Source: Bacteroidia bacterium (GTDB lineage: Bacteria; Bacteroidota; Bacteroidia; CAIKAF01). Taken from it: 46,517 nucleotides of DNA. The position numbers and the translations under genes are program-made. This document shows positions 8,668 to 20,882 of the stretch, one piece after another. The notes beneath the pieces were generated by a model. That model saw only the letters and a program-made list of their open reading frames with translations, searched no databases and was not told the DNA's origin. The number at the start of each line of letters is the position of its first letter. Position 1 is the stretch's first letter. The stretch is taken from the NCBI GenBank assembly GCA_016742095.1, contig JACVCJ010000028.1:1-46517 (forward strand), given 5' to 3'.

Positions 8668-9576
8668 ATGAAATACCTGTCCACACTGTCCGCGCTTCTT
8701 TTCTGCAGCTTCTTCCCTCGTATTTCCCCGGCCCAGATCGTTTATACCGACATCGATCCGGAATACCAGGGCAGTGGGTTTAACCTGGACCTGAATGGCG
8801 ACGGAACGAACGATTTCTATATCGGTGGGACCTTTGTTCCCGGGGGATCGGCTCTTCTTGGCGGTGGCGGAAAAGTATACTCCATTATACGTCTTGACTA
8901 TGGTTACACGTTCAAGGGCGATCCGGGAGCGCCGCGTATATTTGAGAACGGGGATACCGTAGGTATAACTCCGGCTACTTTAGTGGGTGGCCAGGAATAT
9001 TCCCGCCTGATGTTTGAGGAATACTGGAATTCCTACCCCTCCAACAACATAGGTCCCCAGACGCAGCATGTACAGCCCCTGGCCAATAAATACCTGGGAC
9101 TGGCTATAGAACTGAACGGACAAAAGCACTACGGATGGATTAAATTCTCCAAAGTTTCTGTACCAAACGGTCTGGACTGGCTCATTTTTAAATCGTATGC
9201 CTTCAATACCGTGCCGGATAGTATGATCGTTATCCAGGACCCTAACTCCGGTAATGCGGATGAAGAAACGGATCCGGTATATGTACCGGCCACATCGGGA
9301 GGAACTCCGGCAATGCCCGGCGAAGATCCTGTGTATATGGCGTATCCCAATCCCGTGAAAGCCGGACAGGCCATACATATTTCCCGGCATTCGGATGTGA
9401 AGCGCCTCGATGTACTGAATATGAACGGCAATACCATTTTTACACGTACATACGGAGCCGGTACCAAAGAAATTCACTTTTATGAACCGGGCCTTAAAAC
9501 CGGCACGTACCTGATGCGTATCATCTACGCGGATAACGAAGAGGTGCCTACCGTACACCGTATTGTAGTGGAATAG
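8668..9576 (+). CDS. Secreted protein with T9SS type-A sorting domain (paralog 1)
   Basis: The 302-aa protein has a signal peptide (about residues 1-23, ending near SPAQIVYTD). A segment LDLNGDGTNDFYI follows, which looks like a calcium-binding or FG-GAP-like loop. The middle domain (about 50-195) has motifs KYLGLAIELNGQKHYGWIKFSKVSV and SYAFNTVPDS. This resembles segments common in Bacteroidota surface proteins of unknown function. The last ~80 residues form a T9SS type-A C-terminal sorting domain: YPNPVKAGQ, then LDVLNMNGNTIF, then GTYLMRI and a short final strand. Such domains direct proteins through the type IX secretion system to the surface or medium. The next gene is a tandem paralog with near-identical sorting-domain DNA. 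The mature protein's activity is unknown. Confidence 0.85.
   Translation: MKYLSTLSALLFCSFFPRISPAQIVYTDIDPEYQGSGFNLDLNGDGTNDFYIGGTFVPGGSALLGGGGKVYSIIRLDYGYTFKGDPGAPRIFENGDTVGITPATLVGGQEYSRLMFEEYWNSYPSNNIGPQTQHVQPLANKYLGLAIELNGQKHYGWIKFSKVSVPNGLDWLIFKSYAFNTVPDSMIVIQDPNSGNADEETDPVYVPATSGGTPAMPGEDPVYMAYPNPVKAGQAIHISRHSDVKRLDVLNMNGNTIFTRTYGAGTKEIHFYEPGLKTGTYLMRIIYADNEEVPTVHRIVVE
9437..9527 (+). repeat. Sorting-domain segment nearly identical to 10415-10505
   Basis: This 91-nt stretch differs from 10415-10505 at only two positions by direct comparison. The rest of the two genes, including synonymous sites, has diverged clearly. Confidence 0.9.
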
Positions 9577-9584
9577 GGAAGCCC

Positions 9585-9623
9585 TTTGTATACAGGTCCG
9601 GTAAATTTTGTATGATTTTTGTA
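9585..9623. repeat. Three phased TTTGTA hexamers before the second T9SS cargo gene
   Basis: TTTGTA occurs at 9585-9590, 9607-9612 and 9618-9623, with start-to-start distances of 22 and 11 bp, roughly whole helical turns. The region is AT-rich, so chance is possible. TTTG is also the Bacteroidota -33 motif, and none of the copies has a -7 box at the right distance. Confidence 0.35.
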
Positions 9624-9660
9624 GAGAATTATCGTATATTTAATTAAAATATTTCATCCT

Positions 9661-10554
9661 ATGAAATACCTGTACGTTCTATCCGCCGTTCTTCTCTGCA
9701 GCTTCTTCCCGCGTGATGTCCATACGCAGATCGTTTATACGGACATCAACCCGGAAATCAGGAATAGTCTCAACCTGGACCTGAACAATGATAGTATTAA
9801 CGATTTTATTATAACGTCTGATTTTGCACCCGCAGGATCAGCTCTTCTCGGTGGAGGCGGCACACACTATTCCATGATCCGTCCCTATAGTAATTTTGTG
9901 CTGCAGGATAGTATAAGCGGACAAATGAAAATATTCGAACATGGAGATGTAGCAGGCGCCGGACCGGGTGTTTTTCTCTTTGGAGGCGATTATTATTACC
10001 GCCTTATGTTCGAGAGTTACTGGAATTCATACCCTTCGAACAGTATCAGCGACGAAAAGCAATACGTGCAGCCCGTTGCCAATAAATACCTGGGACTGGC
10101 TGTGAATGTGAACGGACAATTGTATTACGGATGGCTTAAATTTTCCAAAGTATCTGTACCGAATGGTTTTGACTGGCTTATTTTTAAGTCCTGCGCCTTT
10201 AATACCGTTCCCGGTGAACCCATTGTGATCGACGATCCCCGTCATGGTGATGAGGCTGAAGAGACCGATCCCGTATATACACCGGGTGTACAACCTGCGG
10301 AAGGAGCGGGCCTTGACCTGTATCCCAATCCGGTAAAAGCCGGGCAGACCATCCACCTTACACGTCTCTCGGATGTGGCCCGGCTCGATGTGATCAATAT
10401 GAACGGTACTACCGTTTTTACACGTACATACGAAGCCGGTACCAAAGAAATTCACTTTTACGAACCGGGCCTTAAAACCGGCACGTACCTGATGCGTATC
10501 ATCTATACAGATGCCGAACAGGTGCCTACCGTACACCGTATTGTGGTAGAGTAG
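9661..10554 (+). CDS. Secreted protein with T9SS type-A sorting domain (paralog 2)
   Basis: This 297-aa product is a paralog of the gene just upstream and has the same layout. A signal peptide comes first (MKYLYVLSAVLLCSFFP, cleavage probably near HTQIVYTD), then an LDLNNDSINDFII loop, a middle domain with KYLGLAVNVNGQLYYGW, and a T9SS type-A sorting domain from about residue 220 (LYPNPVKAGQ, LDVINMNGTTVF, GTYLMRI). The middle domains share blocks of sequence but are clearly diverged, while the sorting domains are nearly identical at DNA level. Tandem duplication is the simplest origin. It ends 6 bp before the stop of the converging minus-strand gene, with no visible terminator. Confidence 0.85.
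   Translation: MKYLYVLSAVLLCSFFPRDVHTQIVYTDINPEIRNSLNLDLNNDSINDFIITSDFAPAGSALLGGGGTHYSMIRPYSNFVLQDSISGQMKIFEHGDVAGAGPGVFLFGGDYYYRLMFESYWNSYPSNSISDEKQYVQPVANKYLGLAVNVNGQLYYGWLKFSKVSVPNGFDWLIFKSCAFNTVPGEPIVIDDPRHGDEAEETDPVYTPGVQPAEGAGLDLYPNPVKAGQTIHLTRLSDVARLDVINMNGTTVFTRTYEAGTKEIHFYEPGLKTGTYLMRIIYTDAEQVPTVHRIVVE
10415..10505 (+). repeat. Sorting-domain segment nearly identical to 9437-9527
   Basis: Second copy of the 91-nt near-identical block, lying in the last third of the paralog's sorting domain. Only two substitutions separate the copies. Confidence 0.9.
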
Positions 10555-10560
10555 AAGCTC

Positions 10561-11841
10561 TTATAATCCGAATATCTTTCTCAGGTAGGGACTCAGGAAC
10601 ACGCCGTCGGGGTCCTGTGCGGCACGCTGGGTATGAAAAGCGTCCCATTGCGGATAGGCATTCCGCAGGTAAGCCGATGTACAGGTGTGCATTTTGCCCC
10701 AGTGCGGGCGGCCGCCATGTGCCTGGAAAATAGCCTCCATATCGCGGAAATAGCGCGTATTGTCCACACCCTTGTAGGCATGGCAGGCAATATAGGCCGA
10801 GTTGCGCTTATGGGCCGGGCTCAGGTACATTTCGTCCTCTTTTACAAAGCGGTTCTCGATCGGGAAATTGATGGGGTATTTCTCCCTGCCGAAGCGGGCC
10901 GTCAGTTCCTTCATCACGTCCTTATACTGCGCCAGGGGCACGTTGTATTCCATTTCGGTGAACTTTACCAGGCGCTGCGTGGCAAATACATTGTGTGCTT
11001 CTTTTACTTTAGTTTCCTTGCCTATAAACGCTGCCGTAAGTCTTGAAACGGCCGGGGCTGTGGACGGGAAGGTTTTTGCCACACCGCAAAACAGCCCGAA
11101 TACGTGGTTCTCCAGCAACACCTCGTCTACCCAGGCTTTCCAGCCCGGTGTATGCGTGGCGGCAGTGGTTACCGCATTGCTGTACTTGGTTTGCGTATAG
11201 GGCGTATACGGCAGCCAGTAGAACTCGAAGTTACGGTTTTCATGAATATACGTTTCCAGCTTGTTCAGTACATCGCCGAGCCGTTCTTTTTTCTTTTCCA
11301 GGTGCAGGTTATAGGCGGGTACGCAGCGTAATTTTATACGGGTAATGATGCCCATGCTGCCCAGTGAGATACGTATACTGTTGAACAGGGCTTCGTCAGC
11401 GGCGTTGCAGGTAATGATCTCGCCCTTGCCGTTTACGAATGTAATTTCTTCGATCTGGGTACTGATATTCCCGAAGCTGATGCCCGTACCGTGCGTACCG
11501 GTGGCCGTAGCGCCGGAGATCGACTGTACATTGATATCGCCCAGGTTCTCCTGCGAAAGTCCCATGGCAAACAGATCGGCCCCCAGTTTTTTCAGTTTGG
11601 TGCCGCCCTGTGCCCAGGCGCGGTTCTCTTCGGGAGCAGGCGAGGTCTGCTGCATCCTGTCCAGGCTCAGGCTCAGCTGATCGGTGGCACAAAGTGCCGT
11701 GAACGAATGCCCGGAACCGATGGCCCGGATGTGTTTGCCGTTTTTGCGTGCGCGCATCACCAGGTCGGCAACCTGTTCTTCGGTTTCGGGATACGCAGTT
11801 TCGGAAGGGTTCCAGTGGATGTTTTCGGCCCAGTTTTTCAT
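10561..11841 (-). CDS. FAD-linked aldonolactone-oxidase-like oxidoreductase
   Basis: The 426-aa protein belongs to the vanillyl-alcohol-oxidase flavoprotein group, near L-gulonolactone and D-arabinono-1,4-lactone oxidases. Residues about 10-175 form the FAD-binding PP-loop domain. The motif RAIGSGHSFTALC contains the histidine that carries covalent FAD in characterised relatives, and GATATGTHGTG is the second FAD motif. The C-terminal domain ends with RPHWGKMHT, the signature of aldonolactone oxidases. There is no signal peptide. The stop codon is 6 bp from the end of the converging T9SS gene. Eight bases upstream lies a racemase-fold PLP enzyme on the same strand, so the two are probably one operon. 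I recall similar pairs in Actinobacteria; the true substrate is unknown. Confidence 0.87.
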   Translation of the reverse strand: MKNWAENIHWNPSETAYPETEEQVADLVMRARKNGKHIRAIGSGHSFTALCATDQLSLSLDRMQQTSPAPEENRAWAQGGTKLKKLGADLFAMGLSQENLGDINVQSISGATATGTHGTGISFGNISTQIEEITFVNGKGEIITCNAADEALFNSIRISLGSMGIITRIKLRCVPAYNLHLEKKKERLGDVLNKLETYIHENRNFEFYWLPYTPYTQTKYSNAVTTAATHTPGWKAWVDEVLLENHVFGLFCGVAKTFPSTAPAVSRLTAAFIGKETKVKEAHNVFATQRLVKFTEMEYNVPLAQYKDVMKELTARFGREKYPINFPIENRFVKEDEMYLSPAHKRNSAYIACHAYKGVDNTRYFRDMEAIFQAHGGRPHWGKMHTCTSAYLRNAYPQWDAFHTQRAAQDPDGVFLSPYLRKIFGL

Positions 11842-11849
11842 AGTGTTGT

Positions 11850-13058
11850 TCAGTGAAAGTCAAATCCTTCGCCGCGGTACGTGGGCCATTGGTCCATGAG
11901 TCCGCCCGAACGGAAAACGTGCAGGGTATTAAAGTGTTCGCAGAGTTCACCGGCTTTGGCGTGGCGCATCACCACAATGCCGCCGGGTTGCAGCAGGTTG
12001 CCGGTATAGAGCAGGGGCGTCTGTACTTCGCCGGCGCCTTCGTTCTTAAGCAGGGTAGCGCTTTTTGGGCGGTATACCTGGGGCGTTTTGGCCGTATCGG
12101 TGGCGCCGGAGGCAATAAAACCGCCGCTCTGGCAGGTATATATGTCCGGGGCCGGATTGCGTGTTACACGCAGCACAAAACCGGCTGCCGGTATATGGCG
12201 GAACTGCCGGTAACCATCGAACAGGTGCGACTGGAAATAGCCCGAGCCTACCGTTACTTCGGTCACGTCCTTTTCGAGGCAGGTGCTTTCGATACTGCCC
12301 GTACCGCCTCCGTTCACCTCGATATTGCGGCCGGTACGGCGGCGTATGAGCGCTACGGCTTCCCGGCGGCGTTCCGCAATTTTAGGCAGGGAACGCTTTT
12401 TCAGGTAGCGGATAATGCGGTTGTACATTCCTTTACCCGGTACATTATCGGCAATGCCCGCCACCTGGGCCTCATAACCCATGGCGCCCCATATTTCGAG
12501 GCGGGGACACAGGTCCAGCTGATCCAGGAAACGGGTGAGCGCTTCGGTATTGTTCAGCGAAGAACGGAAAACCCCGAAATAAACTCCCGGGAAACGTACG
12601 GACATGTCCAGGTCGATGCATATACGTACCGTATGGTCCTCGCGGGCGGCAATATCCTGCAGCAGGCTGATGTGTTCCGGCCGGTCGGTCATAAACAGGA
12701 TGAGCGCCCCGGTCTCTTTCATAGCCTGTATGGCTTCGCTGATCTGTTCGGCTTCCATGCAGGGATACCCGCACAGGATATTTTTAAAACCGCGGCGTGC
12801 CAGCATCACCGATTCGGCGATGGAATACGACATAATACCGGCAATATGTGGCTGCTGTCCGGCAATGTACTCCAGCGCCCGACTATTACGTATACTCTTG
12901 GAGGCGATGCGTACGGGCATATTGCCGCAACGCTGCGAAATACTCCGGATATTGGCATCCAGGGCGTCCAGGTCGAGCCAGGCCAGCGGCAGGGTACGTC
13001 CCGAAAAAAGGGCTGAAAAACGTTCGTAGGAATGGTCCGTTTCAGGATGTGTGGTCAT
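11850..13058 (-). CDS. Alanine-racemase-fold PLP enzyme (amino acid deaminase/aldolase type)
   Basis: The 402-aa protein is a fold-type III PLP enzyme related to D-threonine aldolase and D-serine dehydratase. The N-terminal barrel starts LAWLDLDALDANI. It has RIASKSIRN with Lys54 as the probable PLP-binding lysine, then GYPCMEAEQI and CIDLDMS. The phosphate-binding region appears as EVNGGGTGS. The C-terminal domain includes TEVTVGSGYF and a late segment GIVVMRHAKAGELCEHF, with His and Cys residues resembling the metal-binding site of that family. I cannot tell the substrate. It overlaps the upstream gene by 17 bp and precedes the FAD oxidase by 8 bp, so all three genes are likely co-expressed. 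A link between deamination/aldol chemistry and sugar-lactone oxidation is inference. Confidence 0.83.
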   Translation of the reverse strand: MTTHPETDHSYERFSALFSGRTLPLAWLDLDALDANIRSISQRCGNMPVRIASKSIRNSRALEYIAGQQPHIAGIMSYSIAESVMLARRGFKNILCGYPCMEAEQISEAIQAMKETGALILFMTDRPEHISLLQDIAAREDHTVRICIDLDMSVRFPGVYFGVFRSSLNNTEALTRFLDQLDLCPRLEIWGAMGYEAQVAGIADNVPGKGMYNRIIRYLKKRSLPKIAERRREAVALIRRRTGRNIEVNGGGTGSIESTCLEKDVTEVTVGSGYFQSHLFDGYRQFRHIPAAGFVLRVTRNPAPDIYTCQSGGFIASGATDTAKTPQVYRPKSATLLKNEGAGEVQTPLLYTGNLLQPGGIVVMRHAKAGELCEHFNTLHVFRSGGLMDQWPTYRGEGFDFH

Positions 13059-13476
13059 ATACGATCTTCCAGTTCGATTTAATTTTTCTGAAAATAAGGG
13101 TGAATCGTCCGCCTGCAGAGGGCGTTTCCGGGTAACTGAGGTTCCAGGCGCCGCTTACAATGGCCCGTCCGGCCCCGGCACAGGTGATCTGCAGTTCGCT
13201 GAACTCCAGGGTACCCATGGCTTCTTTGCCCGGGTAGGCCTTCTTATAATTATCGAGCGTCTGCTGCCAGCCGGAGGTCACTTTTTTGCCGCTTACAAAG
13301 CGCAGTTCGGGCCCTGTACTGTAACCGGCCATAAATCCTTCGATGTCGCCCTTGTTCCAGGCCTGCTGCTGCATACTAAGCACTGCCTGCACTTTCCGGG
13401 TACAGGAACAGGCCGCAGAGGCATGAAGAACAGAAAACAAAAGAGAAATGAACAGGAAAGCGGTTATTCTTTTCAT
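13042..13476 (-). CDS. Secreted NTF2-like/SnoaL-fold protein (DUF4440 type)
   Basis: I place the start at 13476, giving 144 aa that begin MKRITAFLFISLLFSVLHASAACSC, a signal peptide with cysteines right at the cleavage region. An in-frame ATG upstream at 13515 adds 13 residues that do not look like a signal. The mature part has the typical cone-fold pattern: VLSMQQQAWNKGDIEGFMAGY, a central TSGWQQTLDNYKKAYP, and final strands FTLIFRKIKSNWKIVYDHTS. This corresponds to the DUF4440/SnoaL-like ketosteroid-isomerase-related family, in which many members only bind small ligands. Its 3' end overlaps the 5' end of the PLP-enzyme gene by 17 bp, suggesting a shared transcript. Confidence 0.8.
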   Translation of the reverse strand: MKRITAFLFISLLFSVLHASAACSCTRKVQAVLSMQQQAWNKGDIEGFMAGYSTGPELRFVSGKKVTSGWQQTLDNYKKAYPGKEAMGTLEFSELQITCAGAGRAIVSGAWNLSYPETPSAGGRFTLIFRKIKSNWKIVYDHTS

Positions 13477-13535
13477 GGTAAGTTTGTACAGCCAAATTAA
13501 AAGAATCCGCTGCAAAAGCCAATACTTTTATTTAA

Positions 13536-19613: not shown

Positions 19614-20882
19614 ATGGCGGATCTTTTTGATAAATTCAGAAAAAACATGGGCCCACTGGGCCGCTTAGCCACTGTGGCTCACGGTTATTTCACCTTTCCG
19701 AAGCTGGAAGGAGATATCGGAAGCCGTATGAAATTCCGGGGTAAGGACGTATTGGTATGGAGCCTGAACAACTACCTGGGCCTGGCCAATCACCCCGAAG
19801 TACGTAAGGCCGATGCCGATGCGGCGGCGGCGTACGGGCTGGCATACCCGATGGGTGCGCGCATGCTTACCGGGGAAAGTAATTTCCACGAAGAACTGGA
19901 AACGGGCCTGGCCAGACTGGTGGGCAAACCGGCCGGTATGCTGCTTAACTATGGTTACCAGGGCTGTATGTCGGTGATCGACGCCCTCGTAAGCCGTCAT
20001 GATGTGATCGTGTATGATGCCGAGTGTCATGCCTGTATCGTGGACGGCGTACGCCTGCATGCCGGTAACCGCTTCGTTTTCCAGCATAACGACATGGAAA
20101 GCCTGGAAAAACAGCTGCAGCGTGCCGAAAAACTGACTGAAAAATCAGGCGGCGGTGTTCTGGTGATCACCGAAGGTGTATACGGTATGACCGGTGAACA
20201 GGGACGTATCGCCGATATCGTAAGCCTGAAATCGAAATACAATTTCCGCCTGCTGGTAGACGATGCCCATGGTATCGGTACCCTGGGTGCCAAAGGCGGC
20301 GGAGCCTGCGAAGAGCAGAACGCCATCGAAGGCGTGGACATCATCTTCGGTACCTTTGCCAAATCCTTTGCCCTTACAGGCGCCTGGGTGGCCGGTGAAC
20401 CCGACATCATGATGTACCTGAAATACAACGTACGTTCACAGATCTACGCCAAAACCCTGCCTATGCCGCTGGTGATCGGTGCGCTGAAACGCCTCGAGAT
20501 CATGAACCGCAGCACCGAGCAGAAAGATAAACTGTGGGCGGTGGTGAACTCCCTGCAGTCGGGCCTGCGCGAAGCCGGTTTCGACCTGGGCAAGACCAAC
20601 TCCTGCGTTACCCCGGTAATGATGCACGGCGGCGAGAACGAAGCCTCCAACCTGGTGGTGGACCTGCGCGAGAACTACGGTATCTTCTGTTCGATGGTGA
20701 TCTACCCGGTGATCCCGAAAGGTATGATCCTGCTGCGACTGATCCCGACCGCTTCGCATACACAGGAAGATGTGGAATACACCATCCGTACCTTCAAAGA
20801 AGTGCGCGATAAACTGGCCAACGGCGGTTACGACAAGGAACGTCCGGCATCCCTGCTGGCCGAGCTCCAGGCCAAAGCCTAA
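19614..20882 (+). CDS. Alpha-oxoamine synthase, probably serine palmitoyltransferase
   Basis: The 422-aa protein is a fold-type I PLP enzyme of the alpha-oxoamine synthase family, which joins an amino acid and an acyl-CoA with loss of CO2. Conserved features are NNYLGLANHPEV, GARMLTGES, LLNYGYQGCMSVIDAL, YDAECHACIVDG, VDDAHGIGTLG and FGTFAKSFALTGAWVAG with Lys250 as the PLP lysine. The divergent TFAKSF motif and the length resemble the Bacteroidota enzymes that make sphingolipid bases by condensing serine with palmitoyl-CoA. Alternatives are a cysteate-using enzyme for capnine (sulfonolipids), glycine C-acetyltransferase or BioF. No biotin genes are nearby. It has its own promoter and terminator. 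Confidence 0.82.
   Translation: MADLFDKFRKNMGPLGRLATVAHGYFTFPKLEGDIGSRMKFRGKDVLVWSLNNYLGLANHPEVRKADADAAAAYGLAYPMGARMLTGESNFHEELETGLARLVGKPAGMLLNYGYQGCMSVIDALVSRHDVIVYDAECHACIVDGVRLHAGNRFVFQHNDMESLEKQLQRAEKLTEKSGGGVLVITEGVYGMTGEQGRIADIVSLKSKYNFRLLVDDAHGIGTLGAKGGGACEEQNAIEGVDIIFGTFAKSFALTGAWVAGEPDIMMYLKYNVRSQIYAKTLPMPLVIGALKRLEIMNRSTEQKDKLWAVVNSLQSGLREAGFDLGKTNSCVTPVMMHGGENEASNLVVDLRENYGIFCSMVIYPVIPKGMILLRLIPTASHTQEDVEYTIRTFKEVRDKLANGGYDKERPASLLAELQAKA

Follow-up and report, generated by a model that had tools for sequence, protein, structure and literature searches.

The window analyzed here is a whole stretch of 46,517 nucleotides, contig JACVCJ010000028.1 of a Bacteroidia bacterium (assembly GCA_016742095.1), and belongs to a 3.73-Mb draft genome. 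Its minus strand carries three consecutive genes at positions 10561–13476, two of which encode the enzyme pair that is the subject of this study. The oxidase gene (10561–11841) encodes an alcohol oxidase linked to flavin adenine dinucleotide (FAD), assigned to the ALO/TIGR01679 subfamily (hereafter ALO) by Pfam and NCBIfam models, alignment, and predicted fold. Upstream of it lies the gene of a fold-type III enzyme dependent on pyridoxal phosphate (PLP) and resembling D-threonine aldolases (11850–13058; assigned by PF01168, alignment, and predicted fold). Further upstream lies the gene of an exported SnoaL/DUF4440 protein with the NTF2 fold (13042–13476; assigned by Pfam). As a preliminary description of this DNA had it, the oxidase and PLP genes are 8 bp apart, and the PLP and SnoaL genes overlap by 17 bp (13042–13058).

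The oxidase matched PF04030 and PF01565, and scored above the curated cut-off of TIGR01679, the model for bacterial FAD-linked oxidoreductases (390.6 vs 292.25 bits); it scored below the cut-off of TIGR01678, the model for sugar 1,4-lactone oxidases (243 vs 396.8 bits). Its predicted structure (mean predicted local distance difference test score, pLDDT, of 92.6) matched galactonolactone dehydrogenase and alditol oxidase. With the alditol oxidase AldO and L-galactono-1,4-lactone dehydrogenase it shares the fold, the histidine of the SGHSF motif, and the Glu/Arg/Lys active site, but it is about 20% identical to them over the fold, and Asp102 aligns with Ser in AldO. His45 (of SGHSF), Glu329, Arg331, and Lys383 were aligned in 14 out of 14 ALO proteins, eight of eight being of the pair type found in the window and six of six resembling SphC of Pseudomonas. 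We take His45 to be the covalent-FAD residue and the other three to form the active site. Residue 101 was Gly in all pair-type ALO proteins aligned (23/23) and Ala in all SphC-like ones (6/6); it aligned with position 113, the altered site in the A113G variant entry 8qnc. This position is presumably an oxygen gatekeeper, at which Ala blocks oxygen in galactonolactone dehydrogenase.

For the PLP enzyme, the only Pfam or NCBIfam model passed was PF01168, the Ala_racemase_N barrel (31.5 vs 24.1 bits). Its predicted structure (mean pLDDT 93.2) was closest to the D-3-hydroxyaspartate aldolase BhcC (Z 37.3), followed by D-threonine aldolases (36.4–36.9), with 351–354 residues aligned to the aldolases at a root-mean-square deviation of 2.4–2.6. 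Lower scores were obtained for hydroxyaspartate dehydratase (34.4–34.5), D-serine dehydratase (31.7–32.2), and alanine racemases (up to 26.6). The profile search gave the same ranking as the fold, aldolases above dehydratases. Lys54 was invariant in 39 PLP sequences, and from the alignment we take it to be the Schiff-base lysine. Thus, the enzyme shares with D-threonine aldolases and BhcC the fold and the Schiff-base lysine, and has its nearest sequence profile and structure among them. It differs from them in three respects. The C-terminal domain PF14031 was detected in none of nine members (maximum E of 10, with HMMER filtering removing most matches beyond roughly 0.1). The score for the BhcC equivalog NF045642 fell far short of its cut-off (38.6 vs 690 bits). 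Finally, at the place where D-threonine aldolase relatives carry an HxC/HxD motif, which presumably binds metal in them, the enzyme has a tail motif, RHxKxGE...TYRGEG. Lys368 and Glu371 of RHxKxGE were invariant in the 39 sequences, and a classical-type paralogue from Pseudomonas (L137) showed NHAC at the same place in the same alignment. By eye, neither the oxidase nor the PLP enzyme of the window has a leader peptide; both start straight at the domain.

The oxidase and the PLP enzyme form a real conserved unit, with a pairing far beyond chance. A scan of GTDB contigs yielded at least 593 pattern matches and at least 580 PLP relatives, of which the 80 most window-like are referred to as the 80 loci; gene calls in homologous loci were mechanical picks of open reading frames (ORFs), and distances were taken between stop-to-stop ORFs. 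ALO was present in 52 of the 80 loci. In 50 it lay within 300 bp of the PLP gene, on the same strand in 48/50. The hosts of the pair included Bacteroidota, Bacillota, Chloroflexota, Myxococcota, Solirubrobacterales, Burkholderiaceae, and Haloarchaea; a metagenome-assembled genome of Heimdallarchaeota also carried the pair, with 0.8 kb between the genes. Among seven relatives from a plasmid collection, ALO adjoined the PLP gene or lay within about 1.3 kb of it in five (two Burkholderia, Mycobacterium riyadhense, Arthrobacter, and Tsukamurella). The statement in the preliminary description that the two enzymes are neighbors in Actinobacteria was borne out in three of five plasmid-collection loci, namely Arthrobacter, Tsukamurella, and M. 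riyadhense (with one gene between), and not in Nocardia and Nonomuraea, where no ALO was found at the PLP locus.

The co-occurrence of the two enzymes, on which the idea of a unit in that description depended, was beyond chance among 16 genomes of the window's family (a search at the level of the order yielded the same 16). The PLP enzyme was found in six of these genomes, and a pair-type ALO, defined by a score over 540 bits, in five of the six vs none of the ten PLP-negative genomes (Fisher p = 0.0014; p-values throughout carry no correction for relatedness). In the four relatives of the window genome that had both, ALO lay on another contig than the PLP gene and beside other genes, two of these contigs spanning only 4.7 and 6.9 kb. 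Joint presence is thus not simply due to adjacency. In a phylum-wide draw, the PLP enzyme was rare (2/296 genomes).

The third gene did not share this conservation. A blastp search against 1101 ORFs (minimum length 80 aa) drawn from 88 homologous loci (L003–L090) returned no homologue of the SnoaL protein at E ≤ 0.01. It is not a conserved member of the oxidase/PLP unit, and the three-gene unit of the preliminary description is reduced to two.

Several loci varied in arrangement. In the M. riyadhense plasmid (L007), a gene for an M28-family peptidase (9121–10326), beside a PE family gene, stands between the PLP and ALO genes. In Solirubrobacterales (L082, L086, and L090), ALO is on the opposite strand and convergent with the PLP gene, the two being 2.1 kb apart in L090. 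Only a fragment of ALO follows the PLP gene in Brevibacillus centrosporus (L083, 9194–9678), which was counted as lacking ALO. Four loci (L010, L048, L071, and L073) share a gene resembling those of membrane proteins, with no Pfam match in the single one tested. It follows PLP-ALO in Burkholderia and Trinickia; in Pseudomonas sp. FEN, it follows a PLP gene and an aldehyde dehydrogenase (ALDH) gene, which takes the place of ALO in an otherwise similar order.

Next, we considered which other genes accompany the PLP gene. Neighboring ORFs were clustered, and three of the 31 recurrent clusters besides PLP and ALO were identified: neutral ceramidase (PF04734), GMC oxidoreductase, and ALDH. The profiles used to count these three were built from the loci themselves, with a Pfam check of three ceramidases, one GMC oxidoreductase, and two ALDH proteins. 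The GMC oxidase was present in eight of the 80 loci, none of which had ALO (probability of zero overlap 1e-4). In a tree of the PLP proteins, partner types were interleaved, with at least seven changes between ALO and GMC and at least six for ceramidase; the tree was built by a quick method, with 29 of 89 inner branches left open and weak deep branches, and the changes were counted without a shuffled control. L025 and L029 duplicate the assemblies G307 and G308, with identical proteins, so L100 and L101 were omitted from the tree. If two unrelated oxidases serve the same PLP enzyme identically, then their mutual exclusion and a mixed tree are the pattern expected. An ALDH gene lay within 4 kb of the PLP gene in 9/80 loci. 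The order ALDH-PLP-ALO was seen in Cohnella (L033) and in two Paenibacillus loci (L037, L042). A protein of 127–156 aa is encoded next to the GMC oxidase in seven loci (L013, L019, L038, L060, L061, L064, and L074) and is possibly its companion subunit; one representative, the one tested, had no Pfam or NCBIfam match.

Neutral ceramidase was found in eight of the 80 stretches, from adjacent to the PLP gene to 3.1 kb off (the Pfam model was applied to seven of the eight, L072 being left out). In Halovivax (L063), PLP, ALO, and ceramidase genes share one locus, and in G307 and G308 the ceramidase gene is directly upstream of the PLP gene. The window genome itself encodes a neutral ceramidase (169 and 92 bits). 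In the window's family, ceramidase was present in all six PLP-positive genomes and in four of the ten others (p = 0.026). Among PLP-positive Bacteroidota, which were reached through their loci and hence classed by record title, 9/13 had a ceramidase of at least 100 bits, vs 1/295 of the other genomes in the phylum draw (p about 1e-13, with a threshold set after the scores were seen); at the Pfam cut-off, the fractions were 12/13 vs 16/295. The phylum draw as a whole gave 2/296 at 100 bits or more, one being the window genome, and 17/296 at the Pfam cut-off. No ceramidase was found in 14 control genomes. For a wider sample, 50 of the 80 loci were picked to thin close relatives and 49 genomes were searched; ceramidase scores reached 100 bits in 17 and passed the Pfam cut-off in 29. 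On inspection by eye, no clear leader was visible in the ceramidases of the window genome, L014, L029, or L072, while those of L061 and L063 have one. A fully cytosolic route is therefore possible.

On balance, we favor the reading that the pair carries out a cytosolic, phosphate-independent breakdown of free sphingoid bases, or of closely similar lipids of the 2-amino-1,3-diol type, as judged from the genes, their families, predicted folds, active-site residues, co-occurrence, and partner genes. A neutral ceramidase encoded elsewhere in the genome would free the sphingoid base. The covalent-FAD oxidase would then turn the C1 primary alcohol into an aldehyde and further into an acid, probably with O2. 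Since oxidation at C1 alters the Cahn-Ingold-Prelog (CIP) priorities, a 2S D-erythro base would give a 2R (D) β-hydroxy-α-amino acid. By our own CIP derivation, C1-oxidized D-erythro-sphingosine (2S,3R) would be the 2R,3R acid, which is D-allo-threonine-like; such 2R,3R β-hydroxy amino acids would fall in the substrate class of D-threonine aldolases. Retro-aldol cleavage by the PLP enzyme would release glycine together with a fatty aldehyde, which an ALDH could convert to the fatty acid.

The preliminary description knew of no defined pathway for these two enzymes, and in this it overlooked Pseudomonas. In P. aeruginosa, sphBCD (PA5328–PA5326) and the ceramidase gene cerN belong to one sphingosine-responsive SphR regulon, and oxidation of sphingosine followed by cleavage, by the same two enzyme classes, was proposed for sphBCD in 2014 and is still unproven (PMC3900636). 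DiGianivittorio et al. (2025) found sphB and sphC to be required for sphingosine loss, and stated that STRING co-occurrence searches gave nothing beyond Firmicutes, Actinobacteria, and Proteobacteria (PMC11893366).

The genus group that includes Pseudomonas sp. FEN was represented by 59 genomes, in which we listed matches with an E of 0.001 or better. Three genomes had a window-type PLP enzyme and 12 more (L125–L136) had an SphD-like one, which a SphC-like ALO directly adjoined in 10/12 loci; the names SphC-like and SphD-like denote family and gene order, not a comparison with the PA5326 and PA5327 sequences. SphD can be ruled out as a close orthologue of the window PLP enzyme, to which the 12 SphD-like proteins were 22–25% identical. 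As far as sequences tell, the Pseudomonas sphC-sphD genes are a distant version of the window pair, and the pairing persists across two deeply diverged forms. Both systems have an ALO-family flavoenzyme and a fold-III PLP enzyme as adjacent genes, and both are linked to ceramidase, sphBCD by the published shared regulon and the window type by neighborhood or genome content. They differ in that the sphBCD operon holds a cytochrome c gene, sphB, while no cytochrome gene adjoins the window pair. SphC is reported to be exported by twin-arginine translocation and is thought to be served by the cytochrome SphB, whereas the window ALO has no leader by eye. SphD-like proteins have an N-terminal leader-like stretch and no RHxKxGE tail, whereas the window PLP enzyme has the tail and no leader (by eye). 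Gly101 would loosely fit an oxidase without a cytochrome partner, and Ala in SphC-like proteins would fit the published cytochrome partner of SphC.

A number of observations weigh against breakdown of sphingoid bases by the pair. In the 2025 work on P. aeruginosa, sphD was not needed for growth with sphingosine, no product of SphBC was named, and the authors call a direct action on the lipid unproven (PMC11893366). The Pseudomonas proteins are distant from those of the window, at 30–32% identity for SphC-like proteins vs ALO and at the still lower value given above for SphD-like ones. In the alignment, the PLP enzyme lacks the HxC/HxD metal motif of D-threonine aldolases, and the oxidase inference from Gly101 is soft because AldO, a true oxidase, has Ala at that position. 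The ceramidase gene of the window genome sits on a different contig (contig 14) from the pair. In the 49 genomes searched, ceramidase scores reached 100 bits in 3/26 with linked ALO vs 14/23 without (9/26 vs 20/23 at the Pfam cut-off), so the ceramidase link is much stronger for PLP loci without ALO. At the same threshold, none was found in 11 Bacillota or five Chloroflexota genomes, nor was any ceramidase found in G037, a PLP-positive genome of the phylum draw. In many ALO-paired organisms, therefore, the source of free sphingoid bases would be external, or the pair acts on some other compound. Close relatives are among the 80 loci, which were the best matches to the window out of at least 580. 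In 13 of these loci, the examined stretch had none of ALO, GMC, ALDH, and ceramidase; several of the 13 run to contig ends. Downstream of PLP-ALO there is an NCS2 permease gene in Arthrobacter (L008, 1.7 kb after ALO), and a solute carrier 23 gene is the next gene in Tsukamurella (L009).

Part of this evidence speaks for the same two-step chemistry, with cleavage or dehydration by the PLP enzyme, acting on a different 2-amino-1,3-diol, for instance an amino-alditol or a small amino alcohol, sphingoid bases being the substrate in some lineages only. The pair is kept in the Bacillota and Chloroflexota despite their lack of strong ceramidase scores, alditol oxidases are among the closest solved oxidases, and the two Actinobacteria have the transporter genes just mentioned. 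On the other side stand the ceramidase of the window genome and of all six PLP-positive family members, and the interleaving of ALO, GMC, ALDH, and ceramidase partners on one PLP tree, whose deep branches are weak; cells lacking a ceramidase could also reach free sphingoid bases. We regard this alternative as rather unlikely, yet as one to be kept in view.

Two further alternatives were weighed. The PLP enzyme could be a dehydratase/deaminase or racemase of D-hydroxy amino acids that clears an amine-containing oxidation product. Its fold group includes D-serine dehydratase and D-threo-3-hydroxyaspartate dehydratase (Z 31.7–34.5), its metal-site motif is altered, and its public label, "amino acid deaminase/aldolase", is ambiguous. 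Since aldolases outranked dehydratases in both sequence profile and fold, and an ALDH within 4 kb of the PLP gene suits an aldehyde product, we hold this to be improbable. The preliminary description had suggested an amino-sugar-derived substrate, that is, sugar-lactone oxidation and D-hydroxy-amino-acid conversion with the exported SnoaL protein as partner. The Pfam name of the oxidase family and the SnoaL/PLP overlap fit this idea, but the oxidase missed TIGR01678, other loci have no SnoaL homologue, and the identified neighbor families (three of the 31 clusters) indicate alcohol or lipid chemistry and lend amino sugars no support; we think it very improbable.

More tentatively, sphingoid-base degradation without a kinase or a sphingosine-1-phosphate lyase may be widespread in bacteria and archaea, acting through a swappable C1 oxidase (ALO or GMC) and fold-III PLP aldolases that form a new subfamily without the metal motif. 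SphBCD, in the envelope, and the cytosolic O2-dependent version would then be two forms of it. The oxidize-and-cleave idea is already in print for Pseudomonas. From a literature search, the cytosolic variant, its occurrence in Bacteroidota, Chloroflexota, and archaea, the exchange of oxidases, and the ceramidase and ALDH context appear to be new: in the open-licence PMC texts searched, the pair came up for Pseudomonas and C. crescentus and in the STRING remark but nowhere else, and no product of SphBC was named. Sphingosine, which bacteria can destroy, is an antimicrobial lipid present in skin, airway, and plants; the Bacteroidota, Chloroflexota, and archaea in which we found the pair lie outside the phyla reported from STRING (PMC11893366). 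One concrete chemistry is favored by the comparative evidence: oxidation of C1 to give a D-β-hydroxy amino acid, and its retro-aldol cleavage to glycine and fatty aldehyde. Leaderless by eye, the window pair is a purifiable and testable enzyme system.

The ORFs flanking the pair are those of the SnoaL protein, of two proteins with type IX secretion sorting, and one without a Pfam or NCBIfam match. The SnoaL protein passed PF13474 (29.5 vs 22 bits) and PF14534. The mechanical start of its ORF is a TTG at 13515, and an ATG at 13476 opens a stretch that resembles a signal peptide by eye. Its gene is probably co-transcribed with the PLP gene, as the 17-bp overlap suggests. A promoter and terminator scan gave results at the shuffled expectation.

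Elsewhere in the window, an alpha-oxoamine synthase is encoded at 19614–20882 (plus strand). It had its best score with the serine palmitoyltransferase (SPT) of Bacteroidota, and SPT, KBL, and BioF-like enzymes are candidates for it. It was under the cut-off of every NCBIfam model matched and was rejected as a nearby SPT (281 vs 640 bits); the SPT cut-off was passed by none of the 16 genomes of the window's family. The two proteins with type IX secretion sorting tails (8668–9576 and 9661–10554) are tandem secreted proteins, alike by eye, with no further Pfam or NCBIfam domain. The gene downstream of the oxidase is convergent with it and ends 6 bp from the oxidase gene.

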